Positions 12,294 through 47,369 of a stretch of 54,780 nucleotides of DNA are shown here, in pieces. The DNA is taken from positions 1-54,780 of the forward strand of contig CACDOD010000006.1 in NCBI GenBank assembly GCA_902554335.1. The letters are read 5' to 3'. The position numbers were made by a program, and so were the translations under genes. Origin of the DNA: an uncultured Pelagibacteraceae bacterium. Its GTDB lineage: Bacteria; Pseudomonadota; Alphaproteobacteria; Pelagibacterales; Pelagibacteraceae. The notes beneath the pieces were generated by a model, which was not told the origin of the DNA, searched no databases, and saw only the letters and a program-made list of their open reading frames with translations. Every line of letters starts with the position of its first letter. The stretch's first letter is position 1.

Positions 12294-12330
12294 TATTACT
12301 ATTGATAACAATTAATTATCAATAGTAATA
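12294..12330. repeat. Perfect 14-bp inverted repeat with 9-nt spacer, directly upstream of the integrase start codon
   Basis: TATTACTATTGATA-acaattaat-TATCAATAGTAATA; an extra TCAATAGT copy at 12350-12357. Confidence 0.9.
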
Positions 12331-12371
12331 TATTATATAATTTTATATGTCAATAGTTTAAATTAAAAAGC

Positions 12372-12548
12372 ATGGGTTCAATTGATGGAGAAATTCCAAA
12401 TATAATATTCTTATTAAGTGCTATTGGGTTTTGGACATTAGCTTATATTCAAAATAAAAAGCATGGAAAAACAATAGAAACTTATTTTTTAACTATCTTA
12501 GCAGTTTTGTTCTCATTAAGCTATTTTGGTCTTATATTTATGACTTAA
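12372..12548 (+). CDS. Small predicted membrane protein, 58 aa (absent from supplied ORF track)
   Basis: ATG...TAA: MGSIDGEIPNIIFLLSAIGFWTLAYIQNKKHGKTIETYFLTILAVLFSLSYFGLIFMT; two hydrophobic helices. Confidence 0.55.
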   Translation: MGSIDGEIPNIIFLLSAIGFWTLAYIQNKKHGKTIETYFLTILAVLFSLSYFGLIFMT

Positions 12549-12648
12549 GGTCCAAATTAAGTTATCCCCACTATTCAACCATGTTAAAAAGTCAATAAAT
12601 ACAACAATAAAGTGATTACATTTGTATTTTGGCTTTGATAATGTCTTT

Positions 12649-12837
12649 ATAACTTAAGAGGCAACTCTTAACTGGCCAATTGAGGAAAAACCGAGAGGTT
12701 CAAGCTCAGGGGGCAGAAAACTTCGCGGAGTAGCGCTAAAATCGTGGAGTGGTGGGCATGGCGGTAGCGCATAAAACGACGTGCCAAAAACAACTGTTCT
12801 TTGCACTGTAAAAAGTGTAAAGAAACAGGTGTTTTTT
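12649..12837 (+). ncRNA. Candidate structured RNA (standalone sRNA or cis-regulatory leader), unassigned family
   Basis: 12661-12785 is about 54% GC by hand count (68/125), against visibly AT-rich flanks; no convincing ORF; 7-bp hairpin with GCAA (GNRA) tetraloop at 12654-12671; -10-like GATAAT at 12637; strong terminator at the 3' end; 5' end is inferred. Confidence 0.55.
12789..12837 (+). terminator. Rho-independent terminator-like hairpin
   Basis: Hand pairing: 12789-12807 with 12814-12833, 18 pairs with one bulge and one mismatch, 6-nt loop GTAAAA, T6 tract 12832-12837. Confidence 0.8.
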
Positions 12838-12845
12838 CAATATTT

Positions 12846-13121
12846 ATGACTTTCAAAGCAACTAAATTTCAATTAAAAGTCTGGAAATATCTTAAAACTA
12901 TACCAAAAGGTCAACTTCGAACCTATCAAGATGTTGCAAATGCCATAAAAAGACCAAAAGCAGTCAGAGCAGTAGCAAATGCTGTTGGAAAAAACCCATT
13001 TGCTCCCAAAGTACCTTGTCATAGAGTAATAAGATCTGATGGAGGTTTAGGTGGCTATTCAGGTCCAGGGGGCATTAAAACTAAAAAAAAACTTCTTAAA
13101 ATGGAAGGTATATCCTTCTAG
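12846..13121 (+). CDS. MGMT-family protein (methylated-DNA--[protein]-cysteine S-methyltransferase, DNA-binding domain only)
   Basis: FQLKVWKYLKTIPKGQLRTYQDVANAI...AVANAVGKNPFAPKVPCHRVIRSDGGLGGYSGG-like; PCHRV active site; start ATG 12846. Confidence 0.9.
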   Translation: MTFKATKFQLKVWKYLKTIPKGQLRTYQDVANAIKRPKAVRAVANAVGKNPFAPKVPCHRVIRSDGGLGGYSGPGGIKTKKKLLKMEGISF

Positions 13122-13576
13122 AATTGTTTAATAACAACGTTTTTTTTAAAATTCTATGTGAATTAAGTTATTTTTTTAATTTCTCCCATCAGTTGAACTT
13201 ATAATTGAATTTTGCTTAAATAAGCCCCCTCTATGGCCGTTTAATCGCTATATTCTAAATGTGCAAAGCTAACTAATATTTACATATTTAATTGATATTT
13301 CTTTGTAAAATTAACATTAAATTCTAAATATCTTCAAAATATTATATTTTTTTTAAATTATAAAAATTAAATAACTTTTATAAATTTATTAAATTGAGGG
13401 AAAAGGCTTATTTTTGCCTATATATTTATCTTAAACCCATTTAAAATTAAATAATGCGTAATAATTACTTTAATTCCCATATATTTCGTTAATTTTTATA
13501 AATAAATATATTCAATAATTACAATAGTTTATAGTTAATAATTAAAGTGATATATTAATATATAGTAAATATATTT

Positions 13577-15327: not shown

Positions 15328-16619
15328 TAAAAAAGTCTTATTTGGACAGGTTTTTTAATTATATTATTGTTTCTTTTTAATGAATTTATAAGATTTTGGG
15401 ATCTATTTTCTAAAGCTCTATGCGTAATTATTACAATTGACGCGGATTTTCGTTTATGATCTGGAATTTGAATTACTCTTTCAATGGATATTTTATTATT
15501 AGCAAGAAGTTTAGTAATTTCAGATAAAACACCAGGTTTGTCCTTTACTTCAAGTCTTAAATATAAAGAGTGTGATGATATTTTTTCATTGTAAGGTAAA
15601 GGTTTTTTTCTTTTAATATCAGGAATACCAAAAGGATATTTAATGTTTCCTCTTAAAATGGACAATAGATCTGACATAAGGGCTGAGGATGTCGCTCCTG
15701 GTCCAGCCCCTTCACCCTGAAGAACAATCTCGCCTACTGGCTTGCCCTCTACAATAACAGCATTCATTACTCCATTTACATTTCCAATATAGCTGTCTTT
15801 TTTAACTAGTGATGGGTAGACTCTTTCAAATAATTTTCCATTAATTATTTCTGTAATACCTAGAAGCTTAATTCTGAAGTTCAATTGAGACGCAATTTCT
15901 ATATCTTTATATTCTAAGTTTTCAATTCCTTCCATTAAGCATTTTTTTTTTGATATTTTTTTATTAAAAGCTAGAGAGGATAATATTCTAATTTTAGCAA
16001 ATGCATCATAACCATTTAAATCAAGTTTTGGATTTCCTGGTTCTGCATAACCTAAAGATTGGGCTTTTTTCAAAACATTTTTAAAGCTGTCTTTTGTTTT
16101 TTCCATTTCTGATAAAATATAATTACAGGTTCCGTTTAATATTCCATAAACTTTAAACAATTTATTAGTAGCAAGTCCCTCCTTGATAGTTCTTAGTATA
16201 GGAATGCCACCCGCAACAGATGCTTCGAATTCTAAATTTACTTTATTTTTTTCAGCTAATTTAGACAAATAGTCACCATGTTTAGCGATCAGAGCTTTAT
16301 TCGGGGTAACAACGTGAATTTTATTTTTTAAAGATGTTTCAACAATTTTTTTTGAAACACCATCGCTTTGACCAATTACTTCAAAAAGAATATTGATTTT
16401 TTTATTTTTAATAATGTCTATTGGATTTTTAAAAAAAATAGATTTATTTATTTTAAATTTTCTTTTTTTATTTTTATTTTTTGCTGAAATTGCAACAATT
16501 TCGATTTTTTTTCCTGTTTTAAGTTCTATATCTTTTTTTTTGGTATTTAATTCATTAAGCAAATAGCTTCCTACTTGACCTAGTCCAACAACAGCAATAT
16601 TTATTTTTTTATTAATCAT
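15327..16619 (-). CDS. hom: Homoserine dehydrogenase with C-terminal ACT domain
   Basis: VVGLGQVGSYL, VVTPNKALIAKHG, EASVAGGIPILRTIKEGL, GILNGTCNYIL; ACT domain LRLEVKDKPGVLSEITKLLA. Confidence 0.96.
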   Translation of the reverse strand: MINKKINIAVVGLGQVGSYLLNELNTKKKDIELKTGKKIEIVAISAKNKNKKRKFKINKSIFFKNPIDIIKNKKINILFEVIGQSDGVSKKIVETSLKNKIHVVTPNKALIAKHGDYLSKLAEKNKVNLEFEASVAGGIPILRTIKEGLATNKLFKVYGILNGTCNYILSEMEKTKDSFKNVLKKAQSLGYAEPGNPKLDLNGYDAFAKIRILSSLAFNKKISKKKCLMEGIENLEYKDIEIASQLNFRIKLLGITEIINGKLFERVYPSLVKKDSYIGNVNGVMNAVIVEGKPVGEIVLQGEGAGPGATSSALMSDLLSILRGNIKYPFGIPDIKRKKPLPYNEKISSHSLYLRLEVKDKPGVLSEITKLLANNKISIERVIQIPDHKRKSASIVIITHRALENRSQNLINSLKRNNNIIKKPVQIRLF

Positions 16620-25278: not shown

Positions 25279-27378
25279 TTATCCAGCAATCACAGCCAAT
25301 AGTAATAATGCGACAATGTTTGTAATTTTTATCATTGGATTAACAGCGGGTCCAGCAGTATCTTTATATGGATCACCAACAGTATCACCTGTTACTGCTG
25401 CTTTATGAGCGTCAGAACCCTTTCCCCCAAAATTACCGTCTTCAATATATTTTTTTGCATTGTCCCAAGCACCACCTCCAGCTGTCATAGATATCGCAAC
25501 AAATAAACCTGTAATAATTACTCCTAGCAACATCGCACCAACAGATGCAAGTGCTGCTACTTGACCACCAATTCCATAAATAATAAAGTATAAGACGATT
25601 GGTGACAAAACAGGCAATAATGATGGGATAATCATTTCTTTGATCGCGGCGATAGTTAATAAATCAACTAATTTAGCATAATCTGGTTTTTGTTTTCTTT
25701 TCATTATACCTGGAAATTTTTTAAATTGTCTTCTTACTTCAAGCACAACAGCTCCACCTGCTCTACCTACTGCTTGCATTCCCATTGATCCAAATAAATA
25801 TGGCAACATACCACCAACTAATAAACCTACAACAACAAATGGATTAGAAAGATCAAATGTAACAATTATACCTTCTAAATTTGAGCCTGCAATTTTTGAA
25901 AAATGTTTAATATCTTCAGTATAGGCTGCAAATAATACTAATGCACCTAATCCTGCAGATCCAATTGCGTAACCTTTTGTTACAGCTTTTGTTGTGTTGC
26001 CTACAGCATCAAGTGCATCTGTAGTTTTTCTCACTTTATTAGGTAATTTTGACATTTCTGCGATACCACCAGCGTTATCTGTTACTGGTCCATAAGCGTC
26101 TAATGCTACAACCATTCCAGCTAAAGCCAACATTGATGTAACTGCTATAGCAATACCAAATAAACCCGCAATTGAGTTAGTAATCAATATACCTGATACA
26201 ATAATAATTGCAGGTATAGCAGTAGCTTCAAGTGATATTGCCAATCCTTGAATTACATTTGTACCATGTCCAGTCGTTGAAGACATGGCAACACTTTTTA
26301 CAGGTCTATAACCTGTGCCCGTGTAGTATTCTGTTACCCATATGATTAATCCAGTAATTATTAAGCCAATTACTCCACAGTAATACAGACTTAATCCAGT
26401 AAATTCTTTACTACCTATGTTATAAACTTTATTTAATCCCAATACATAATCTGTTATTGGATACAGGATGATTAATGATGTTATTGCTGTTACAACAAAA
26501 CCTTTATAAAGGGCTGCCATTATATTTTTTGATTTACCTAACTTTACAAAATATGTACCTAAAATTGATGTTAAAATACAAGCACCACCGATTGTTAGTG
26601 GATATACCATCATATTTAAGTCACCAACAAAAAATATTGATGAAAGAACCATGGTCGCTACAATAGTTACAGCATAAGTTTCGAATAAGTCTGCAGCCAT
26701 ACCAGCACAATCACCGACGTTATCACCAACGTTGTCTGCAATTACAGCAGGATTCCTCGGATCGTCTTCTGGTATACCAGCCTCAACTTTTCCTACAAGA
26801 TCAGCACCTACATCAGCGCCTTTAGTAAATATTCCGCCTCCCAATCTAGCAAAAATAGATATAAGAGATGCTCCAAAACCAAGTGCTACTAGTGCATTCA
26901 CTATTTCTCTCTCATCTACTCCGAATGACAACAATAAATAATAATAAACTGCAATAGATAATAACGCTAAACCTGCAACCAACATTCCTGTAACTGCGCC
27001 AGATTTAAATGCTACATTGAGACCTTCATTCAAACCTTTTCTAGATGCTTCAGCTGTTCTTACATTTGCTTGAACAGATACCAACATACCAACATAACCT
27101 GCAATTCCTGACAATGCTGCACCAATCAAATAACCCAATCCAACTAAAAGATTAAATGCAAAAGTTATAATAACAAGCACAACAGCACCGACGATAGCGA
27201 TGGTTTTGTATTGTCTGTTTAAATATGCTTTTGCTCCTATTTGAATAGCAGAAGCTATTTCTTGCATTTTTGCATTACCCGGACTTGAGTTTGAAATATT
27301 TTTACCAGTTATAAAACCATAAACTATTGATAATAAACCTGCTAATATTGTGTAACCTAGTATTGTTTCTGCATTCAT
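25279..27378 (-). CDS. hppA: Membrane-bound proton-translocating pyrophosphatase
   Basis: [85 protein letters not shown]. Confidence 0.98.
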
Positions 27379-46115: not shown

Positions 46116-47369
46116 ATGAAAAATAAATATTCAATAATTTCTTTATTAAAGAATTCTTTATCTTACCATGAAAATTGGCAACAAGCATGGAGAGATCCAG
46201 AGCCTAAAAAAGAATATGATGCTGTTATTATTGGTGGTGGAGGTCATGGATTAGCTACAGCTTTTTACCTAGCCAAAAAGCATAATATGAAAAATATTGC
46301 TGTTGTTGAAAAAGGTTGGATAGGTGGTGGGAACACTGGTCGTAATACAACAATTATTAGATCAAATTATCTTTGGGATGCTAGCGCAGGTTTATATGAT
46401 CATGCTCTTAAATTGTGGGAAAGTTTATCTCAGGAAATTAACTATAATGTAATGTTTAGTCAAAGAGGAGTAATGAATCTTGCTCACAATCTTCAAGATG
46501 TTAGAGATTTAAAAAGAAGAACTCACGCTAATAGATTGAATGGAATTGATGCAGAGTGGTTATCTACTGAAGAAGTTAAGAAATTTTGCCCTATTATAAA
46601 TACTTCACCAAACATAAGGTATCCTGTCTTGGGCGGTACACTTCAACGAAGAGCAGGTACAGCAAGACATGATGCTGTGGCATGGGGATATGCTAGAGGT
46701 GCAGATGCAATGGGTGTCGATGTAATCCAAAATTGTGAAGTAAAAGGAATTAAAAGAAAAGGTGATGCTGTAGAGGGTATAGAAACAACAAAAGGTTTTA
46801 TTAAAACAAAAAAAATAGGTGTTGTTGCTGCAGGACACTCAAGTGTTATAGCAAATATGGCTGGTATTAGATTGCCTCTTGAAAGCAAACCACTTCAAGC
46901 TTTAGTTTCCGAACCTGTAAAACCGATTATAAATACAGTTGTAATGTCTAATGCCGTTCATGCTTATGTAAGTCAATCAGATAAAGGTGAATTAGTTATT
47001 GGTGCAGGCACAGATGCATATGTTTCTTACACTCAAAGGGGAAGTCATGATGTAGTGGAAGGAACTTTAAAAGCAATTTTAGAACTTTATCCAATATTCA
47101 GTAGAATGAAAATGTTGAGACAATGGGGAGGAATTGTTGATATTTGTCCTGACGCGAGTCCAATTATTAGCAAAACAAGTATTAAAGGTTTATACTTTAA
47201 TTGTGGTTGGGGCACTGGAGGATTTAAGGCTACACCTGGATCAGGTGATTTATTTGCACACACAATTGCAAATGATGAACCACACTCGTTAAATGCTGCT
47301 TTCAACATAAATAGATTTGTGAGCGGTGATCTAGTAGATGAACACGGCGCAGCTGCAGTGGCACACTAA
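46116..47369 (+). CDS. soxB: Sarcosine oxidase subunit beta
   Basis: [53 protein letters not shown]; start set to internal ATG 46116. Confidence 0.95.

Follow-up and report, generated by a model that had tools for sequence, protein, structure and literature searches.

An IMES-2 RNA gene with covarying hairpin loops in an uncultured Pelagibacteraceae bacterium

The GC-rich island at positions 12647-12787 of the forward strand is a member of IMES-2, a catalogued ocean-bacterial RNA family. A cmscan search of the window (the whole 54,780-nucleotide stretch of DNA that was analysed) against Rfam 15 matched RF02035 (IMES-2) at 156.1 bits (E 5.1e-41), far above the curated gathering threshold of 54.7 bits and over the full length of the model, positions 1-141. 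The four consensus hairpins P1-P4 are all retained, with compensatory changes in relatives. This was the single non-tRNA Rfam match in the whole window, and a permissive Rfam scan of 12300-13200 returned nothing of note besides it. The initial annotation had described the island as a structured non-coding RNA of an unrecognised family, transcribed from the forward strand and ending in a terminator. The cmscan check that it had proposed gave a full-length match, so the novelty claim falls by the annotation's own standard while the observation itself stands; the RNA, its strand and its terminator are all upheld by Rfam, the fold, covariation and the terminator fold. What is added here to the known family is covariation between the P3 and P4 loops, new as far as we checked, and a clearer distribution.

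IMES-2 was reportedly described from marine metagenomes by Weinberg and colleagues in Nature in 2009, and its transcript level in marine bacteria is said to have been high in that work. Our sequence shares with RF02035 the nested fold and a SAR11 host; it differs in that the printed Rfam model is nested and lacks the P3-P4 loop pairing proposed here. IMES-1 (RF02034) takes its name from the same marine RNA series and is a separate Rfam family. The sole full-text mention of IMES-2 that we found was in a squid genome paper (PMC6962438), where the match was called possible environmental contamination.

The compositional signal is genuine. G and C account for 67 of the 125 bases at 12661-12785 (68 had been counted by hand) against a window mean of 27.3%, a richness that none of the other 125-base stretches attains. 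Similar composition had been considered obvious only in the tRNA genes, which holds for two tRNA genes (64 and 61 per 125-base stretch) but three further islands of 61-62 lie inside open reading frames (15648-15797, 26687-26826 and 46598-46747). The region 12640-12837 folds at -66.9 kcal/mol, compared with -46.7 +/- 3.7 in shuffles (z -5.4). A coding sequence was rejected, in agreement with the earlier remark that there is no convincing ORF, since no frame is conserved among relatives: single-base indels are present in the alignment, and other genera have CTTGG or TTCGG where hairpin P4 carries an in-frame ATG here.

The RNA is composed of four hairpins, all on the forward strand and all confirmed by covariation. 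P1 (12654-12671) is the perfect 7-bp stem with a GCAA tetraloop noticed at the outset, TTAAGAG-GCAA-CTCTTAA; all of its cells are paired in the alignment, and 5 of its 7 pairs have changed on both sides. P2 (12672-12716) carries a GAAA/CAAG internal loop and a GAGA tetraloop, and is followed by P3 (12720-12750), in which 8 of 8 stem pairs covary, and P4 (12755-12785). Across 88 sequences, 94% of the cells of the nested fold are paired and 29 of 39 pairs have changed on both sides, a level of covariation reached in none of 500 shuffles and well above that of slid versions of the structure. RNAalifold recovers the same helices, including P2, P3 and P4, from the alignment alone.

The flanks would suit an independent transcription unit. 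Immediately 3' of P4, the hairpin and U run at 12786-12836 (+) form an intrinsic terminator that folds at -22.6 kcal/mol (z -5.8), as strong as had been claimed; a simple terminator scan missed it, and the hairpin is retained in relatives whose sequence there differs. Upstream, a promoter-like region at 12609-12642 (+), conserved in 25 relatives, contains AAAGTGAT at 12609-12616 and a -10-like GATAAT at 12637-12642. A promoter scan gave a single sigma-70-like match at 12615-12642, which at 9 of 12 bases is weak evidence alone. The predicted transcript would start near 12650 and measure about 185 nt. Some 85 bases 5' of this putative start lies a conserved box (12562-12577, +), which reads TTATCCCCACTATTCA here and TTATCCACA...TTCACAG in other genera in an alignment of 25 upstream regions.

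The loops of P3 and P4 each consist of a GUAG-type start followed by a hexamer, AGCGCU at 12732-12737 and AGCGCA at 12766-12771 (both +), and the two hexamers change in concert. AGCGCU occurs with AGCGCA or AGCGCC, AGUACU with AGUACU, AGCACU with AGUGCU, and AUCGCU with AGCGAG, so that the core types GCGC/GCGC, GUAC/GUAC, GCAC/GUGC and UCGC/GCGA are complementary in every major case; the combination of AUCGCU with AGCGCA retains four pairs, and about one sixth of members retain only four. The pairing shows 13 cells changed on both sides where shuffles predict 1.4. Three of its six pairs have changed on both sides, a count that 30 of 500 shuffles also reach, and the alignment rows are related sequences; support for the pairing is thus good but not conclusive. 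The GCAC/GUGC type is present in two genera (L045; L035 and L036). Its halves are complementary to each other and neither is self-complementary, which indicates that the partner of the P3 loop is the P4 loop, in the same molecule or in another one. The concerted changes suggest either that the two loops touch or that they pair in an alternative fold, as they do in the free-energy fold of the divergent L035; probably they bind each other as a kissing loop in the cell.

Based on these findings, we consider it reasonably probable that the island is a free-standing IMES-2 gene of about 185 nt, whose RNA joins its P3 and P4 loops and acts in trans while bound by a protein or complex. According to this proposal, IMES-2 would be transcribed from its own putative promoter, end at the intrinsic terminator and fold into four hairpins, with the kissing loop giving it a compact and rigid shape. 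As a presumably abundant structured RNA, it would then be bound by a protein or a large complex, RNA polymerase and the ribosome being the obvious candidates, and would serve as a scaffold or decoy. The proposal involves neither Hfq-type antisense action nor a role as leader of the adjacent gene. Only short runs of unpaired sequence are conserved (GAAA linkers and tetraloops), and outside the P3 and P4 loops the alignments contain no clear antisense seed. Short runs of this kind, together with the lack of a known chaperone, make a protein or large complex our best guess for what IMES-2 binds.

The same loops could be read as the seeds of a trans-acting antisense RNA that pairs with mRNAs. Their conserved GUAGCGC segments look single-stranded in both P3 and P4, and a promoter-like region and terminator of its own are features that IMES-2 shares with many small RNAs. 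Against this, neither Hfq (five controls positive) nor a ProQ family protein (controls positive) was found in any of 22 genomes; the window's own genome is 70% complete, and closed relatives agree on the absence of Hfq. The absence of both proteins and of a recognised 6S RNA makes an Hfq-type antisense role unlikely, and a shared mRNA target leaves unexplained why the P3 and P4 loops covary together. We therefore regard antisense action as improbable.

Slightly less credible is a conformational switch, in which the P3 and P4 loops alternate between a paired and an open state and the RNA senses something, perhaps with the terminator stem involved. The loops are indeed complementary in every major type, and the free-energy fold of the divergent L035 pairs them in a nested manner in place of P3 and P4, which makes a switch conceivable. 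However, the stems of P3 and P4 themselves covary strongly, and genera g2, g5 and g6 have no same-strand gene directly 3', hence no expression platform to control.

6S RNA is a free-standing RNA gene of similar total length, and IMES-2 might be its functional replacement, binding RNA polymerase; we judge this quite unlikely. In its favour, no Rfam 6S RNA was found in 247 Pelagibacterales genomes by searches that recovered the Caulobacter and E. coli controls, although their filters were strict and a divergent 6S could escape them. At the IMES-2 locus, 6S (RF00013) gave no match even at E 5. 6S is also absent from the listing of structured RNAs of P. ubique by Meyer et al. 2009 (PMC2704228). 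Meanwhile, 6S is defined by a single long rod with a central, open-promoter-like bubble and paired 5' and 3' ends, whereas the consensus fold of IMES-2 consists of four short, separate hairpins. Lineages without IMES-2 also have no recognised 6S, so replacement cannot be general. A broader possibility, to which we likewise attach little probability, is that IMES-2 serves SAR11 bacteria that have no Hfq, ProQ or 6S as a global regulator specific to their lineage, with a rigid surface formed by the P3-P4 kissing loops to which RNA polymerase or the ribosome would bind.

It is very unlikely that IMES-2 is a cis-regulatory leader of the gene that follows it here at 12849-13121: that gene lies directly 3' of the terminator in genus g1, usually starting about 10 bases past it on the same strand, but among 51 loci no same-strand downstream gene is constant, since in g5, g6 and g2 the RNA is followed by another gene that is read from the other strand, and 12 same-genus genomes examined keep the gene without IMES-2. 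In six same-genus genomes that lack the RNA (G003, G030, G044, G064, G066 and G072), a membrane ORF directly adjoins the gene. The neighbours of IMES-2 differ by genus, which indicates a free-standing RNA. In g1 they are this gene together with a small membrane ORF or another ORF; g5 and g6 have mnmA and a convergent membrane gene there, and g2 has other genes. Since the g1 gene starts just after the terminator, some read-through regulation may occur there. The gene (+) encodes about 90 residues of an O6-alkylguanine alkyltransferase DNA-binding domain with a PCHR motif and no N-terminal domain.

IMES-2 was present in 108 of 247 Pelagibacterales genomes, always as a single copy, and in 4 of 10 genera, all within family f1 (Pelagibacteraceae) among the genomes searched. 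Roughly half of the genomes sampled from the order thus carry this conserved RNA. SAR11 is among the most abundant groups of ocean bacteria and has very few regulators. Loop-loop covariation and clean presence or absence in close relatives offer concrete handles on its role. A covariance model refined with divergent members (R2) found no IMES-2 in the closed genomes G003, G005, G011, G013, G020 and G026, in family f2 or in genera g3 and g4; three R2 matches of E 0.2 over 26 positions were taken as chance. A search of 289 genomes across the class gave only two matches, in the window's own genome and in one of the same family (G001), and the named genomes among the matches listed are all Pelagibacteraceae, Pelagibacterales or Candidatus Pelagibacter. 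The g2 version (L035, L036) is divergent, having lost the GAGA-capped tip of P2 while retaining P1, the GCAGAAA linker and the P3 and P4 loops. The idea that IMES-1 takes the place of IMES-2 in genomes without it was rejected, with no match in 28 genomes of the order in a search run without a positive control.

On a tree of the adjacent alkyltransferase-like gene, which is short and has many weak branches, the presence and absence of IMES-2 require 4 changes, compared with 12.6 for shuffled labels. A mobile element was rejected on this clustering, and the pattern fits mostly vertical inheritance with losses. No copy was found in annotated phages, and matches in four viral contigs (L032-L034 and L224) were short patterns arising by chance. 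In another short viral contig (L252:2042-2149), a methylase-like phage gene gives way to IMES-2 sequence at the end. The IMES-2 piece begins inside the methylase-like reading frame, and the contig was rejected as a phage copy, being probably an assembly chimera.

The surroundings of the locus show further features. A tyrosine recombinase (PF00589; 11338-12291, -) is the only one found in the window's own genome, as is also the case in the closed genomes G003, G009 and G015, and the f2 genome G002 has two. Adjoining it here and in many relatives is an almost unchanged 35-bp inverted repeat, ATTACTATTGATAA-CAATTAA-TTATCAATAGTAAT (12295-12329). Sequence and position suggest that the pair is a Xer/dif system with a single recombinase, located at the terminus. 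A 58-residue, small membrane-like ORF (12372-12548, +), which has no Pfam match, is conserved next to the recombinase in many relatives. The first nine bases of the upstream box (12562-12570) resemble a DnaA box, and several relatives (L041, L044, L045 and L046) have the perfect TTATCCACA there. A location of IMES-2 at the replication origin, an idea raised by this resemblance, was rejected, since in G015 the locus, like the recombinase and inverted repeat, lies at the local GC-skew maximum, as expected of a terminus; the G015 locus has no cluster of perfect DnaA boxes. The DnaA-box-like 9-mer may place IMES-2 under the control of DnaA.
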